Of a stretch of DNA of 35,435 nucleotides, positions 22,872-28,792 are shown one piece after another. The position numbers and the translations under genes were made by a program. Each line of letters starts with the position of its first letter. Positions within the stretch are counted from its first letter, which is position 1. The notes under the pieces were generated by a model. The model was not told the DNA's origin. It worked only from the letters and a program-made list of their open reading frames with translations, and did not search any database. The DNA is from Candidatus Saccharimonadota bacterium (lineage in GTDB: Bacteria; Patescibacteriota; Saccharimonadia; Saccharimonadales; UBA4665), in the NCBI GenBank assembly GCA_025928155.1, contig JAICKC010000014.1:1-35435 (forward strand), read 5' to 3'.

Positions 22872-25399
22872 AAGTCAGTCTGAACTGGGTTAAGGAATAC
22901 CTGGATTTTGAACTACCACCGGTGGACGAGCTAGCAGAGCGGATCGGAGCGCAGCTGGGCGCGGTCGAAGAAGTGGAAGATCTCGGTGCTAAATATAATG
23001 GCGTCGTTATCGTAAGAGTAGTGGAGTGTGACCCACTCGAAAATTCCGACCATTTGCACCGCTGCTTGGTGGATGACGGTGGCAAAGTTCAAGGCGTAGA
23101 GCGGCAAGCGAACGGCTTAGTGCAGGTGCTCACTGGCGCACCGAACGTGCATAAAGATATGTGGGCTGTCTGGTTGGCGCCGGGCGTGACCGTCCCGGAA
23201 AGCGCTGGGAAGGAACCGTTCGTGCTCGAGAGCCGAAACATGCGGGGTAGTGTAAGCCACGGGATGTTGGCGAGTCCCCGCGAGCTGGCGCTGGGTGACG
23301 GCCATGAGGGTTTGCTGGAACTCGACGGTGACAGCATAAAACCCGGCGACGACTTCGCAGAGGCGTACAAGCTCAATGACTATATTATCGATATCGAAAA
23401 TAAGATGTTCACGCATCGGCCAGATTGCTTTGGCATTTTGGGTGTGGCACGTGAAATCGCAGGCATCTTGGGCCACCAGTTCACCTCGCCCGACTGGTAC
23501 ATCAACGGTTTGCAGGATATGCTGCAAGCAGATGGAACATCACTGCCGCTAGAGGTGCACAACGAACTGCCCACCCTCGTACCGCGCTTTGTGGCGATTC
23601 CTCTCAGCAACATCGAAGTCAAGCCGTCGCCGTTTTGGCTTCAGTCCTATCTGCTGCGCTGCGGCGTGCGGCCCATTAGCAACGTAGTAGACGTCACGAA
23701 CTACATCATGCTGCTGACCGGTCAGCCGATGCACGCCTACGACTACGATAAGGTCAAGGCCGTGAGCGGCGGCGATACCGCTACTGTTGTGGTGCGTTAC
23801 CCGCACTCCGGCGAGAAGATTACGCTGCTAAATGGCAAAGAAATCCAGCCGCGCGAAGAGGCTATCATGATAGCTACCGACAAGGCGTTGCTGGGCGTCG
23901 GCGGTATCATGGGTGGTGGAGCCACTGAAGTAGGCGCTGGCACCAAGAATATCATCCTGGAGGTCGCTACTTTCGATATGTACTCCGTCCGCCGAACCTC
24001 TATGACTCACGGTCTCTTCACCGACGCGGTAACCCGCTTTAATAAGGGTCAGAGTCCGTTACAAAACGTCGAGGTAGCAGGCAGGGCAGTGCAGCTCCTG
24101 TCTGAACTGGCCAGCGCCTCCGTAGCTGGCTCACTTATCGACAACAATCACGTGGGCGAGCAAAGCCGCGAACGCCGCTGGGTGCACCCGCCGGTGCCAG
24201 TAACGACTGATTTCATCAATTCACGTCTTGGGCTACAGCTCACTGCCGCGGACATACAGAAACTGCTCGGCGACGTTGAGTGCAGCGTGACAGCTGATGA
24301 CGATCGTCTACTCGTGCAAGCACCGTTCTGGCGAACCGATATCGAGACCCGGGAAGATGTGGTTGAGGAAGCCGGTCGACTGTATGGTTTTGACAAGTTA
24401 CCGCTTGAGCTACCAAAACGGAGTATCAAGCCTGCTGCAAAAGACACAACGCTAGAACTTAAAAATAGGCTTCGCACGAGGTTGGCCAAAGCGGGAGCCA
24501 ACGAAATTCTCACATATAGCTTCGTGCATAGCGACTTGATCAAAAGGGTTGGTCAGAACCCTGAAAACGCCTTTCAGGTGAGCAATGCCTTGAGCCCTGA
24601 CCTGCAATATTACCGATTGAGTCTCATGCCGAGCCTCCTCGATAAAGTACACTTAAACATCAAGGCTGGTTACGATGCGTTCGCGTTATTTGAGCTCGGC
24701 AAAACGCACTTTGTCGGTGAAATGGATGCGCAAGACCCGGAGCTCCCCAACGAAGATAACCAGGTGGCACTCGTCGTAGCCTATGGTGACAAACGTCAGC
24801 CTGTCGGTGCAGCGTATTACCAGGCGTGTAAGTATCTAGAGGGGCTAATAGATCCGCACTCTCTCGAGCTGACATCGCTTGCTGACTTTGACCTTACGAA
24901 AGATGCATGGGGCAAAGAGCTGACTGCCCCCTATGAGCCGAGCCGGTCAGCAGTCATTGTCAAAGATGGACAGATTTGGGGCGTGGTTGGTGAGTTCAAA
25001 GCAAGCGTTAGGCGAGCGCTGAAACTCCCTGTATATGCGGCAGGCTTCGAGCTGCACCTAGACGCTATAAACTTCAGCACAGCGGCGCGCTACCTGCCGC
25101 TTCCGCGCTTCCCGACCGTCTGGCAGGATTTGACACTCAAAGTCACAGCCGAAAAGTCGTATGCCGAGGTGCGTGGATTTGTTCATAGGGCACTTGAGGC
25201 CAACGCTCCTCACGATACGCTCATTCGGCTCGACGACGTCGGCATTTACCAGGCCAAGGGCGACCAGGCGCACAAAAACATCACCTTTCGTGTGCGTATT
25301 ACTGGCCAAAACCGCACTCTGACTGACAAAGAGGTGAGCAGGGTAGTCGAGGCGATTGCGGGGGCGGCCCAAAAAGACCTTGCCGCCGAGTGGGCCTAG
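22868..25399 (+). CDS. pheT: Phenylalanyl-tRNA synthetase beta subunit
   Basis: An 843-residue PheRS beta chain, slightly longer than the common 790-800. In order: N-terminal segment MKVSLNWVKEYLDFELP, a tRNA-binding OB fold (about 40-150), the B3/B4 editing domain (VPRFVAIPLSNIEVKPSPFW, then CGVRPISNVVDVTNYIML), B5 (about 440-520), the inactive catalytic-like core, and a C-terminal anticodon-binding FDX-ACB domain from about residue 745 (PRFPTVWQDLTLKV). ATG 22868 overlaps the MazG-like stop as ATGA; the frame is open upstream but that part overlaps the MazG-like gene. Confidence 0.97.
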   Translation: MKVSLNWVKEYLDFELPPVDELAERIGAQLGAVEEVEDLGAKYNGVVIVRVVECDPLENSDHLHRCLVDDGGKVQGVERQANGLVQVLTGAPNVHKDMWAVWLAPGVTVPESAGKEPFVLESRNMRGSVSHGMLASPRELALGDGHEGLLELDGDSIKPGDDFAEAYKLNDYIIDIENKMFTHRPDCFGILGVAREIAGILGHQFTSPDWYINGLQDMLQADGTSLPLEVHNELPTLVPRFVAIPLSNIEVKPSPFWLQSYLLRCGVRPISNVVDVTNYIMLLTGQPMHAYDYDKVKAVSGGDTATVVVRYPHSGEKITLLNGKEIQPREEAIMIATDKALLGVGGIMGGGATEVGAGTKNIILEVATFDMYSVRRTSMTHGLFTDAVTRFNKGQSPLQNVEVAGRAVQLLSELASASVAGSLIDNNHVGEQSRERRWVHPPVPVTTDFINSRLGLQLTAADIQKLLGDVECSVTADDDRLLVQAPFWRTDIETREDVVEEAGRLYGFDKLPLELPKRSIKPAAKDTTLELKNRLRTRLAKAGANEILTYSFVHSDLIKRVGQNPENAFQVSNALSPDLQYYRLSLMPSLLDKVHLNIKAGYDAFALFELGKTHFVGEMDAQDPELPNEDNQVALVVAYGDKRQPVGAAYYQACKYLEGLIDPHSLELTSLADFDLTKDAWGKELTAPYEPSRSAVIVKDGQIWGVVGEFKASVRRALKLPVYAAGFELHLDAINFSTAARYLPLPRFPTVWQDLTLKVTAEKSYAEVRGFVHRALEANAPHDTLIRLDDVGIYQAKGDQAHKNITFRVRITGQNRTLTDKEVSRVVEAIAGAAQKDLAAEWA

Positions 25400-25401
25400 T
25401 C

Positions 25402-27159
25402 GTGCGCCGCTGGAGCGCCATTATTGCCTCGACCGCGAGCTTGCTCGTGCTGCTGGTACCCGGTATTGCCTCGGCCGACGTCAATGACTTTGCGGTCACG
25501 AGCTTTTCGGCCGACGAAACCCTTACACGGGCGGACCCCCAGGGCGAACTGCGCATCATCGAACACATAGACGTGGATTTCAACGACTACAACCACGGCA
25601 TCCTGCGGGCTATCCCGCAGAGCTACCACGGGCATACGCTCAAACTGCACATAAATAAGGTGAGCTCAGGCTCTAGCGCACCGGCACAGTACACGACCTC
25701 GAGCAGCAGTGGCAATGAGGTCTTAAAAATCGGCGACCCGAACCGCACGGTCACCGGCCCGCAAGCATACACCATCGACTACACCGTGCGTAATGTTATC
25801 GGATTTACCAAAGGGGACGATGAACTCTACTGGGACGTCAACGGAGATCAGTGGGACCAGCAATTTGGCACTGTCACCACGGTGCTACACCTGCCAAGTG
25901 GCTTGCAATTGACTAATACGCCGCCCCAGTGCTTTACGGGGAGCTTTGGATCTACAGCCGCAAACTGTCTGGTGATAGGTGCTAACCGTGCTATAACTAT
26001 TACCGCCCCGGGTGGTTTGCTAGCCAACCAAACACTGACCTACCGCGTATACTTTCAAAAAGGCTACTTTGCGCCCATGACTTTCTGGGAGACGTTCGGA
26101 GATTACGCCGCCCCAATTCTAGAGGTGGCGGTGCCGATAGTGCTGGCGTTTGGCATTGCCTTTAGCCGCTGGTGGCGACTCGGCCGCGACCCCAAAGGGC
26201 GGGGAACGATTGTGCCGGAATACGCGGCGCCGGAAGGTATCTCGCCGCTCGATGCTGGCACGATTGCCGATTTCAAAACCGACAACCGCGATATAACCGC
26301 CACATTTATAGACCTGGCACGCCGCGGCTACCTGCGCATTATCGAGAACCGCAAGGATCGGAAAATTCTTAAAGACCAGGTATCGTACACGCTGGAACTG
26401 CGCAAGTCTGACTGGTCAGCGTGTACGCCGTTTGAAACCCGGCTGCTTATGGATACATTTTCGGGCAGCATCGTCGGCCTCACAGCAGACCTGAGCGATC
26501 TGAGCCACAAACTGTATAAGACCGCCAAGGATATCCGTAACGACCTCGGCGGTAATTTAGCTCTGCGTGGCTATTTCCGCAAAAACCCAACGAGATACAT
26601 TGGCGTGAGTTCTGGGATAATCGTTGTGGTGCTGGTGGGTGGAAATATTGTCGGTCCGGCGCTCGTCGGCGCGCACCTGTTACCGCTGGCATTCGGTGTC
26701 GGCATTGGGGCGGCCATCTGGCTAGTATTTGAACACTTCATGCCGGCGCGGACAGAACTTGGCGTTGCGGCCAAAGAGGCACTGCTAGGACTCAAGATGT
26801 ACATGGAAACGGCTGAAAAGGATCGTTTGGAAAAACTGGAGGGACCAAATGCAGCGTACGCTGCCGGCGCAGGCCAGCCACAGCGCACGGTTGAGCTGTT
26901 TGAGAAGCTGCTGCCCTATGCCATTGTACTCAAGGTAGAGAGCCAGTGGGCTGCTAAATTTAACGACATCTACAAGTCCGCACCGGATTGGTACGTGGGG
27001 AACTGGACAGCGTTCAATGCCGGTTACTTGGCAGGTTCGCTGAGCAGCGGTTTTGCCTCGGCCATTAATACAGGCTTTACGGCGCCCTCCAGCTCGGGTG
27101 CTGGCGGCGGTGGCTTCGCTGGAGGTGGTGGCGGCGGCGGAGGGGGCGGAGGCTGGTAG
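25402..27159 (+). CDS. DUF2207-family membrane protein with poly-Gly tail
   Basis: About 585 residues. It has a signal peptide (about 1-25, ending GIASADVNDF) and an extracytoplasmic DUF2207 domain (FSADETLTRADPQGELRIIE, NHGILRAIPQSY, ELYWDVNGDQWDQQFG). A membrane helix lies near 225-250, followed by a cytoplasmic domain (LGRDPKGRGTIVPEYAAPEG, DLARRGYLRI) and two more membrane helices near 395-440. The C-terminus ends in a long Gly run (FAGGGGGGGGGGGW), typical of this family. Function is unknown. The start is GTG 25402, or GTG 25390, which overlaps pheT; neither has a strong ribosome-binding site. Confidence 0.87.
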   Translation: MRRWSAIIASTASLLVLLVPGIASADVNDFAVTSFSADETLTRADPQGELRIIEHIDVDFNDYNHGILRAIPQSYHGHTLKLHINKVSSGSSAPAQYTTSSSSGNEVLKIGDPNRTVTGPQAYTIDYTVRNVIGFTKGDDELYWDVNGDQWDQQFGTVTTVLHLPSGLQLTNTPPQCFTGSFGSTAANCLVIGANRAITITAPGGLLANQTLTYRVYFQKGYFAPMTFWETFGDYAAPILEVAVPIVLAFGIAFSRWWRLGRDPKGRGTIVPEYAAPEGISPLDAGTIADFKTDNRDITATFIDLARRGYLRIIENRKDRKILKDQVSYTLELRKSDWSACTPFETRLLMDTFSGSIVGLTADLSDLSHKLYKTAKDIRNDLGGNLALRGYFRKNPTRYIGVSSGIIVVVLVGGNIVGPALVGAHLLPLAFGVGIGAAIWLVFEHFMPARTELGVAAKEALLGLKMYMETAEKDRLEKLEGPNAAYAAGAGQPQRTVELFEKLLPYAIVLKVESQWAAKFNDIYKSAPDWYVGNWTAFNAGYLAGSLSSGFASAINTGFTAPSSSGAGGGGFAGGGGGGGGGGGW

Positions 27160-27208
27160 GGCTCGCGTAATTCTGTAAGCTGTCTAACAACAATTTTATC
27201 CATAATTA

Positions 27209-27217
27209 TGGTATAGT
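27209..27217 (+). promoter_or_regulatory. Extended -10 TGGTATAGT with no gene at normal distance
   Basis: TGGTATAGT predicts transcription from about 27224, yet no plausible start codon follows for roughly 500 nt. It may drive a non-coding RNA. The perfect palindrome CCAAAAACGTTTTTGG (27243-27258) lies just downstream. Confidence 0.55.
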
Positions 27218-27223
27218 AGTGCC

Positions 27224-27676
27224 AGTTTTAGGAGTAATACGTCCAAAAACGTTTTTGGCACTTGCCAACTCCAAGACTACTGACAGGTACATGCTAGCTT
27301 TTTCAAGTGGGCAGAGTGTGTTAGTCACCGGGCTTTTTTGGTTTCCCCCAGTTGCCGTGGTGCGTGTGCCAGCACAGCCATGGGCACTCTGCTCTTGAAG
27401 AGCGATGACGCGAGCCAGCCGCCCCGACCCAGGTTGGTAAACTGTGGTTACCCCCGGTAACTGCATGTTGGTGCTCATTGCTCTTCAGGCGGTGGCCGGT
27501 GCGTAAGGCGCGAGTTTCTAGGCTAAGGTTGAGCTCCTTCCCCTATGCTCCCTCCCTAGCTCTGCGCAGCACTGGTCACCGCCCCTCGGTTGAGTTGAGC
27601 CTGTAGGCTTGAGAAACTTACTGGCTACGGCCACGTTTTTCGCTTCGCTCCTCCCCCTAACTACTGTACCTGTCTC
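27224..27676 (+). ncRNA. Candidate structured non-coding RNA
   Basis: About 450-500 nt without a credible reading frame, behind an extended -10 at 27209-27217. Complementary segments form a chain of stems: 27311-27318 with 27385-27392 (8 bp); 27396-27408 with 27475-27487 (13 bp, one G-U) enclosing a 10-bp hairpin 27443-27452/27456-27465; 27488-27497 with 27574-27583 (10 bp, one G-U); and AGCCT/AGGCT at about 27599-27610. I looked for RNase P RNA, tmRNA, SRP RNA and 6S signatures and found none. The 3' end is not defined. Confidence 0.45.
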
Positions 27677-27719
27677 CCTACCAGAGTCCACGAATATAGT
27701 TCTCGCGGACTGTGGCAGG
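27677..27719. promoter_or_regulatory. 43-bp inverted repeat around a -10-like TATAGT, before Nudix gene
   Basis: 27677-27693 and 27703-27719 are complementary (7 bp, one mismatch, 9 bp, with two G-U pairs as RNA). The 9-nt centre contains TATAGT (27695-27700). It is either the closing hairpin of the upstream RNA or an operator centred on the Nudix promoter, whose leader would be about 15 nt. Confidence 0.5.
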
Positions 27720-27721
27720 AA

Positions 27722-28219
27722 ATGGTACGCTCTAAGGATATGGCAAGCGTGTCTCATAGAAAATCGGTGCGGGCGATTGTGCTACACGGTGACAAGATGC
27801 TCGTTATAAAACGCAATAAATTCGGCAGTCGGTACTACATGCTTGTTGGCGGCGGCGTTGACCTGGGGGAAGACCTCGAAACCGCGCTCCGGCGCGAGCT
27901 GCGCGAGGAAACCGGGCTGGAGGTGGGTAGTGTGCGGTTAGTGTTCGTGGAAGATGGTGGATCACTGTTTGGCCCGCAGTATGCATATCTGTGTGAATAC
28001 ACAGGTGGCGAGCCCGCTCTGAACCCGCACAGCGAAGAAGCCAAAATATCTGCCCTAGGGCAGAACACCTACGAGCCGCTCTGGCTGCCTGTCAGTGAGG
28101 TGCCGAATGTGCCATTTCGCTCGCAATCTGTAGCTGAAGCCGTTCTGGATGGTATCAAGAACGGGTTTCCCGACGTCCCACGTGAGCTTGCCTGGAAGCC
28201 CGAAAACGTGCAACAATAG
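27722..28219 (+). CDS. Nudix hydrolase
   Basis: A 165-residue Nudix hydrolase with a complete Nudix box (GGGVDLGEDLETALRREL, then REETGL) after the opening strand KSVRAIVLHGDKMLVIKRN. The fold is a single domain; the substrate is unknown. The start is either ATG 27722, preceded by AGGA, or ATG 27740, preceded by AAGGAT; both spacings are short. It is followed by the FKBP pair after 24 nt and may share their transcript. Confidence 0.9.
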   Translation: MVRSKDMASVSHRKSVRAIVLHGDKMLVIKRNKFGSRYYMLVGGGVDLGEDLETALRRELREETGLEVGSVRLVFVEDGGSLFGPQYAYLCEYTGGEPALNPHSEEAKISALGQNTYEPLWLPVSEVPNVPFRSQSVAEAVLDGIKNGFPDVPRELAWKPENVQQ

Positions 28220-28243
28220 AGCGAAGTTAAGAGGAAGATTTCT

Positions 28244-28792
28244 ATGGCGCGAATGCGTGATCGAGTTTTTGCGGGAATGGGCGCACTACTGTTTTTTGGG
28301 AGCGCCTGTGCACTCACCGTTTTTGTTATCTTAAATCCTGGCAAAGACAATGCGTCCAACACGAGCGCGCAGACATCGCAGCAGCAAGCCTGCAGCGACA
28401 CCAGCACGAGCGAGCCCACGCTGGCCGTACCGGACATCTACAAGCCGGGTGGTGCGGTTACCGAGCTGCAGACGACTGATCTCGAGCCGGGTACCGGCCC
28501 TGCAGCTAAAGACGGCGACTGCTTGGTGGTAAAGTACTACGGTACTTTAGCTAGCAATGGCACAAAGTTCGACGAGAATTTTACCAGTGGTTCGGCATTT
28601 GCCTTTACGCTCGGCCAGGGACAGGTCATCCAGGGCTGGGACAAAGGCATGGTTGGTCTGAAGGCCGGTGGCATGCGTCGGCTGGTTATCCCGGCGGCTT
28701 TAGGGTACGGCAGCCAGTCACCTAGCTCGTCAATTCCGGCTAACTCCGACCTCGTGTTCGTCGTTAAGTTATTAAGGGTACAAAACTCATGA
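28244..28792 (+). CDS. Membrane-anchored FKBP-type peptidyl-prolyl isomerase
   Basis: A 182-residue protein with an N-terminal membrane helix (about 10-30), a polar linker (about 35-65) and an FKBP domain (about 85-180). The domain shows VVKYYGTLASNGTKFDENF, VIQGWDKGMVGLKAGG with the active-site Trp, RRLVIPAALGYGSQ and DLVFVVKLL. It should catalyse proline isomerisation or chaperone folding outside the membrane. An AGAGGAAG ribosome-binding site lies upstream of ATG 28244. The stop overlaps the next FKBP gene as ATGA. Confidence 0.92.
   Translation: MARMRDRVFAGMGALLFFGSACALTVFVILNPGKDNASNTSAQTSQQQACSDTSTSEPTLAVPDIYKPGGAVTELQTTDLEPGTGPAAKDGDCLVVKYYGTLASNGTKFDENFTSGSAFAFTLGQGQVIQGWDKGMVGLKAGGMRRLVIPAALGYGSQSPSSSIPANSDLVFVVKLLRVQNS

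Follow-up and report, generated by a model that had tools for sequence, protein, structure and literature searches.

A strongly folded, lineage-specific spacer as the possible 5′ leader of a NUDIX-FKBP-FKBP operon in a Saccharimonadota genome

The spacer in front of a NUDIX hydrolase gene in the window (the whole analysed stretch of 35,435 nucleotides, contig C9 of a 1.30 Mb genome that is 98% complete) is non-coding, contains several long stems and a promoter motif, and folds more strongly than expected by chance. No relatives of the candidate were found in the genomes searched, and the gene order around it was followed in related genomes. The reading we favour, with confidence about evenly balanced for and against it, is that of a young, lineage-specific transcribed spacer that would serve as the long structured 5′ leader of the NUDIX-FKBP-FKBP operon. 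Transcription, read-through and the leader role are predicted from the sequence. A lineage-specific leader is more likely than a demonstrated new RNA class.

According to this reading, the lineage would have gained ~560 nt of non-coding DNA, either by insertion or after the loss of an ABC-transporter gene. A promoter at ~27209–27217 would start a + strand transcript at ~27222–27225, which would fold strongly and then read through into the NUDIX gene and the two FKBP-type isomerase genes. An operon that is joined directly to upstream genes in relatives would here be served by its own promoter. We lean slightly towards a leader that is largely passive rather than regulated. If the fold is used, this could be, for example, for mRNA protection or for the regulation of NUDIX translation.

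The spacer (27160–27721, ~560 nt) lies between a DUF2207 gene and the NUDIX gene. pheS and pheT are located farther upstream of the DUF2207 gene. Two FKBP-type isomerase genes and then a carbon-nitrogen hydrolase gene follow 3′ of the NUDIX gene, all on the + strand. The nearest named relatives carrying the DUF2207 gene of the window are Saccharibacteria assemblies. The features of the locus are the following:

25390–27159, + strand: DUF2207 membrane-protein gene, upstream of the spacer (Pfam PF09972/PF20990)
27209–27217, + strand: extended −10 element TGGTATAGT (sequence motif; enriched between genes)
27224–27278, + strand: 5′ hairpin domain of the predicted transcript (minimum-energy fold)
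27243–27258, no strand: perfect 16-bp palindrome, shortly 3′ of the promoter (inverted-repeat scan)
27282–27674, + strand: closing helix with arms 27282–27291 and 27665–27674, 10 perfect pairs (pairing probability 0.9–1.0)
27309–27394, + strand: stem-loop 1, arms 27309–27319/27384–27394 (pairing probabilities)
27394–27489, + strand: stem-loop 2, arms 27396–27408/27475–27487, enclosing the hairpin 27443–27452/27456–27465 (pairing probabilities)
27488–27583, + strand: stem-loop 3, arms 27488–27502/27569–27583, adjoining stem-loop 2 (pairing probabilities)
27677–27719, + strand: 3′ hairpin just 5′ of the NUDIX gene, with no T-run after it (minimum-energy fold)
27722–28219, + strand: NUDIX hydrolase gene, downstream of the spacer (Pfam PF00293)

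For the NUDIX start, a GTG at 27749 is an alternative to the ATG at 27722, and AAGGA was seen by eye 10 bases before this GTG. The GTG, which aligned with the start in a relative, may be the true start.

The longest frame in the spacer comprised 90 aa on the minus strand. Its hexamer coding bias was 0.07, which is below 0.11, the 5th percentile of 506 true coding pieces (four neighbouring genes: 0.36–0.48), and it had no Pfam match. A protein-coding reading of the spacer was rejected on these two grounds, and the claim of the preliminary description that there is no credible reading frame was borne out.

In relatives, the place of the spacer is occupied differently. The gene order of G065 (L034, L064) was the same, with the NUDIX gene following the DUF2207 gene after a spacer of ~30 nt. 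An ABC-transporter gene lies between the DUF2207 and NUDIX genes in L065, L066, L067 and L079, and in L069 the FKBP gene comes after an alpha/beta-hydrolase gene and an ABC gene. The ABC gene of all these loci encodes 588–601 aa and is missing at this place in the candidate's genome. In the genus mate G001, the ABC gene runs straight into the NUDIX gene. The nearest upstream frame ended ≤39 nt from the NUDIX start in 23 of 28 other loci (mechanical ORFs; there were 29 other loci, and L202 had no upstream sequence). The five wider spacings were 85–693 nt, and L191, L194 and L200 were viewed. For the window itself, the mechanical count mistook a 92-codon minus frame for the upstream gene.

The candidate sits where relatives have an ABC gene or almost nothing, and it is not a conserved leader. 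The NUDIX operon has lost its old upstream attachment here and would therefore need its own promoter. The attachment of the operon to upstream frames in relatives argues for the leader reading, as do the NUDIX-FKBP-FKBP genes following on the same strand.

The spacer could also be a decayed copy of the ABC-transporter gene that the relatives L065, L066, L067, L069 and L079 carry at this place and that is missing here. Five full and two partial ABC proteins were searched by tblastn, but the best E value was 0.08 and the matching stretches were short and out of order. As no remnant was recognisable, this explanation was rejected, and we consider it very improbable.

The extended −10 element that had been proposed at 27209–27217 is present and credible, being of an intergenically enriched kind with a near-twin before the tmRNA of the genome. 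The motif TGNTATANT occurred at 0.32 per kb in spacers and at 0.043 per kb in genes (~7 times denser in spacers), and 48 of the 98 spacer sites with a following start were ≤40 nt from that start. Because of this enrichment and this proximity to starts, TGNTATANT is a real promoter motif in the candidate's genome. The candidate's TTATGGTATAGT is near-identical to TTATGGTATAAT upstream of the tmRNA. Moreover, a different species (G336) has 24 of the 25 bases around the candidate promoter in a stretch between two of its genes. A consensus scan for a −35/−10 pair at the candidate found none, and the −35 hexamer is poor. Four TGNTATANT sites were found in the window: only one is near the NUDIX operon, and the other three are >4 kb off. 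The enrichment of the motif, its match to the tmRNA promoter and its single occurrence near the operon speak for the leader. On the other side, few promoter motifs sit so far (~500 nt) from the next start.

In the region 26500–28500, four terminator-like sites were found, none of them on the + strand within 27222–27721; this again favours the leader. Since there is no strong terminator before the NUDIX gene, the predicted transcript most likely continues into it. As far as the sequence can tell, a promoter lies upstream and no terminator precedes the gene, which is the arrangement of a structured 5′ leader. A weak terminator-like stretch was seen by eye at 27624–27639 (4-bp TGGC/GCCA, then five T); it could end a shorter RNA and counts against the leader. 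The genome's RNase P RNA and tmRNA each have a clear terminator at the end, a hairpin plus T-run (read by eye).

All stems that had been listed were recovered in place, with pairing probabilities of 0.85–1.0, but their extents changed. The supposed 8-bp stem has 11 bp (27309–27319/27384–27394), and the supposed 10-bp stem has 15 bp (27488–27502/27569–27583). The stem described as 13 bp comprises 12 Watson-Crick pairs and one G-U; it can be extended to 15 pairs (27394–27408/27475–27489). The 15-bp version of stem 3 competes with the extended stem 2 for 27488–27489. A perfect 10-bp helix (27282–27291/27665–27674), which the preliminary description had overlooked, closes the whole structure. The inverted repeats 27153–27161/27676–27684 and 27160–27171/27405–27416 were dismissed as chance by a rough estimate.

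A 7-bp pseudoknot (27513–27519/27612–27618) was seen by eye; matches so short are expected by chance, and the nested folding model assigns it a probability of 0 by construction. The 16-bp palindrome at 27243–27258 is the sole copy in the genome, allowing up to two mismatches, and is possibly an operator or merely part of the 5′ hairpin. Elsewhere in the window, a perfect 24-bp palindrome (GGGTGCAGTTTATAAACTGCACCC) was seen at 2779–2802, inside or between reading frames.

Single stems were less striking than had been thought when a 13-bp match within 92 nt was judged unlikely by chance. In 300 dinucleotide shuffles, a helix of at least 13 pairs occurred in 16% and one of at least 15 pairs in 3% (G-U allowed, span up to 130), and two helices of at least 12 pairs occurred in 7%. 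The whole fold of 27222–27721 is beyond chance: on the + strand, z was −7.0 and none of 100 shuffles was as good. A repeat with 60 shuffles gave z −7.5, and the opposite strand gave z −3.45 for a slightly longer stretch. Among 140 500-nt windows of the contig (both strands), the candidate was the strongest fold after GC correction. This value shifts with the boundaries chosen: when 62 bases were added (27160–27721) and only 12 shuffles were used, z was −3.8.

The fold was compared with the other spacers of the genome in a survey of 152 spacers of at least 300 nt (defined mechanically as having no ORF ≥100 aa), with 12 shuffles each; 387 of the 392 planned window-strands were finished. Genome-wide, 27160–27721 took rank 27 of the 387 intergenic window-strands, 26 others being at least as extreme. 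The rank was 23 of 347 once windows containing genes for tRNA, tmRNA or RNase P RNA were removed. On average, the spacers of the genome beat their shuffles by −2.1 kcal/mol per 100 nt (s.d. 2.4; 387 window-strands). Because the long spacers of this genome commonly beat their shuffles, fold strength alone is weak evidence here. The excess over shuffles was about −8.9 kcal/mol per 100 nt for the candidate, with better boundaries than the other spacers, which had no such optimisation, −2.0 for the RNase P RNA and −4.4 for the tmRNA. A passive leader would not need so large an excess, above that of the RNase P RNA and tmRNA, and this counts against the leader reading. The promoter motif was present within the first 200 nt of 19 of the 387 window-strands, and of these the candidate had the second-strongest fold.

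Some other spacers stood out in the survey. On both strands, G000:C1:24984-25315 surpassed every other spacer of the genome in fold excess (−10.4 and −9.4 per 100 nt); it had no tRNA or Rfam match. On the − strand of G000:C24:11472-11851 (in L116), the excess was −7.25 per 100 nt; a promoter of the candidate's kind lies in the first part of this spacer, here with a TTGACA box by eye, and its place in L116 had no Rfam match. The spacers G000:C25:49647-50686, one of the genome's strongest folds, and G000:C5:11525-12908 have in common a 140-nt inverted copy with 89% identity.

The survey bears on the possibility that the spacer is neutral intergenic DNA that remained after a gene loss or an insertion, with a fold that reflects the general tendency of the genome and is unused as RNA. 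This would agree with the average excess of long spacers, with the 26 window-strands at least as extreme, with the complete lack of conservation and with single stems that are not rare in shuffles. We nevertheless consider it unlikely: a good promoter points into the spacer, and the fold ranks first of the 140 contig windows.

The search for homologues gave only the candidate itself in the genus (blastn, three genomes including its own). In 93 family genomes, blastn gave short matches only and no convincing second copy; many of these matches had E >0.03, and L025 (E 0.43) was the only one of them inspected. In 392 order genomes, the matches were again short, and eight besides the candidate reached E 0.01. 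In a phylum sample of 379 genomes, only the candidate reached 1e-4. Seven of the eight matches with E between 1e-4 and 0.01 were inspected (L057, L003, L058, L059, L004, L060 and L061), together with L025; the eighth, L062, duplicates the L060 match. Of the eight inspected places, six fall inside reading frames; L058 is an intergenic promoter, and L061 resembles a terminator. As a control, the same blastn recovered the RNase P RNA in 78 of the 93 family genomes, including both genus mates.

A covariance model of 27394–27585 (R1) found only the candidate in the 93 family genomes, the 392 order genomes and the candidate's own genome. The input of R1 was a single sequence, given twice, so the model has low power and would miss all but close structural relatives; stricter filters applied in the larger genome searches. 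Hence, with no homologue in the genus, family, order or phylum samples, the idea of a conserved class of new structured RNA is unsupported.

The same searches bear on a small MITE-type mobile element bounded by the inverted repeat GACAGGTACA/TGTACCTGTC. This perfect 10-nt repeat lies near both ends, and the candidate is absent from relatives. However, blastn (word size 7) and the covariance model each found only one copy in the genome, no target-site duplication was seen, and the candidate had no match in phage or plasmid records and no exact match in viral contigs. With neither several copies nor a target-site duplication, the mobile-element reading was rejected; we regard it as extremely improbable.

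Known RNA families were covered by the covariance-model search that the preliminary description had suggested, and none was identified. Against 4227 Rfam families, the window gave 0 matches at the gathering threshold. With E up to 10, three chance-level matches appeared in 27100–27800, the best with 15.4 bits against a gathering threshold of 100. A tRNA/tmRNA search of the candidate region found nothing. The earlier finding of no RNase P RNA or tmRNA signatures holds: the family models (RF00010 and RF00023) had no match here, and the genome has its own RNase P RNA at C8:55931-56276 (211 bits) and its own tmRNA at G000:C18:63249-63645. Both identities were rejected. The tmRNA was found by the Rfam model, while ARAGORN gave 0 in the genome.

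The remaining alternative is a stand-alone structured non-coding RNA gene of ~420–500 nt, either restricted to the species or diverging so quickly that it goes unrecognised in relatives. Its promoter resembles that of tmRNA, the fold is stronger on the + than on the − strand (z −7.0 vs −3.45), the closing helix gives a self-contained multi-branched fold, and the candidate is second in fold strength among the motif-bearing window-strands. On the other hand, no homologue was found in the two other species of the genus or in the family, order and phylum samples, although blastn does recover the RNase P RNA control in 78 of the 93 family genomes. A strong terminator is lacking as well, and other spacers without known RNA genes fold equally strongly. 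We therefore find a stand-alone RNA gene doubtful. The narrower claim of an undescribed multi-domain Saccharibacteria RNA of this kind, ~420–500 nt long, with a tmRNA-like promoter of its own and limited to a single species-level lineage, seems slightly less likely still. Should the RNA prove real, it would count as a large orphan RNA of bacteria that are reduced and host-dependent; in the portion of the literature that was covered, no study of such large RNAs in these bacteria was found.

The candidate can be compared with three kinds of known systems. With the tmRNA of its own genome, it has in common a near-identical extended −10 and a similar length; unlike the candidate, the tmRNA is conserved within the family, has a terminator and is matched by Rfam (64.5 bits). 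OLE, GOLLD, ROOL and HEARO are large bacterial non-coding RNAs that are spread over many species. They are likewise several hundred nt long with a multi-stem fold, whereas the candidate was found in one species and has no Rfam match beyond the three chance ones. From the known families of leaders, the candidate differs in that it matches no ligand-binding or attenuator family and is not conserved in relatives. Long structured 5′ operon leaders in general are similar to it: a promoter is followed by a long folded non-coding stretch and directly by genes on the same strand, with no strong terminator between the promoter and the genes. If the candidate is such a leader, it shows an operon regaining a promoter after losing its upstream gene.
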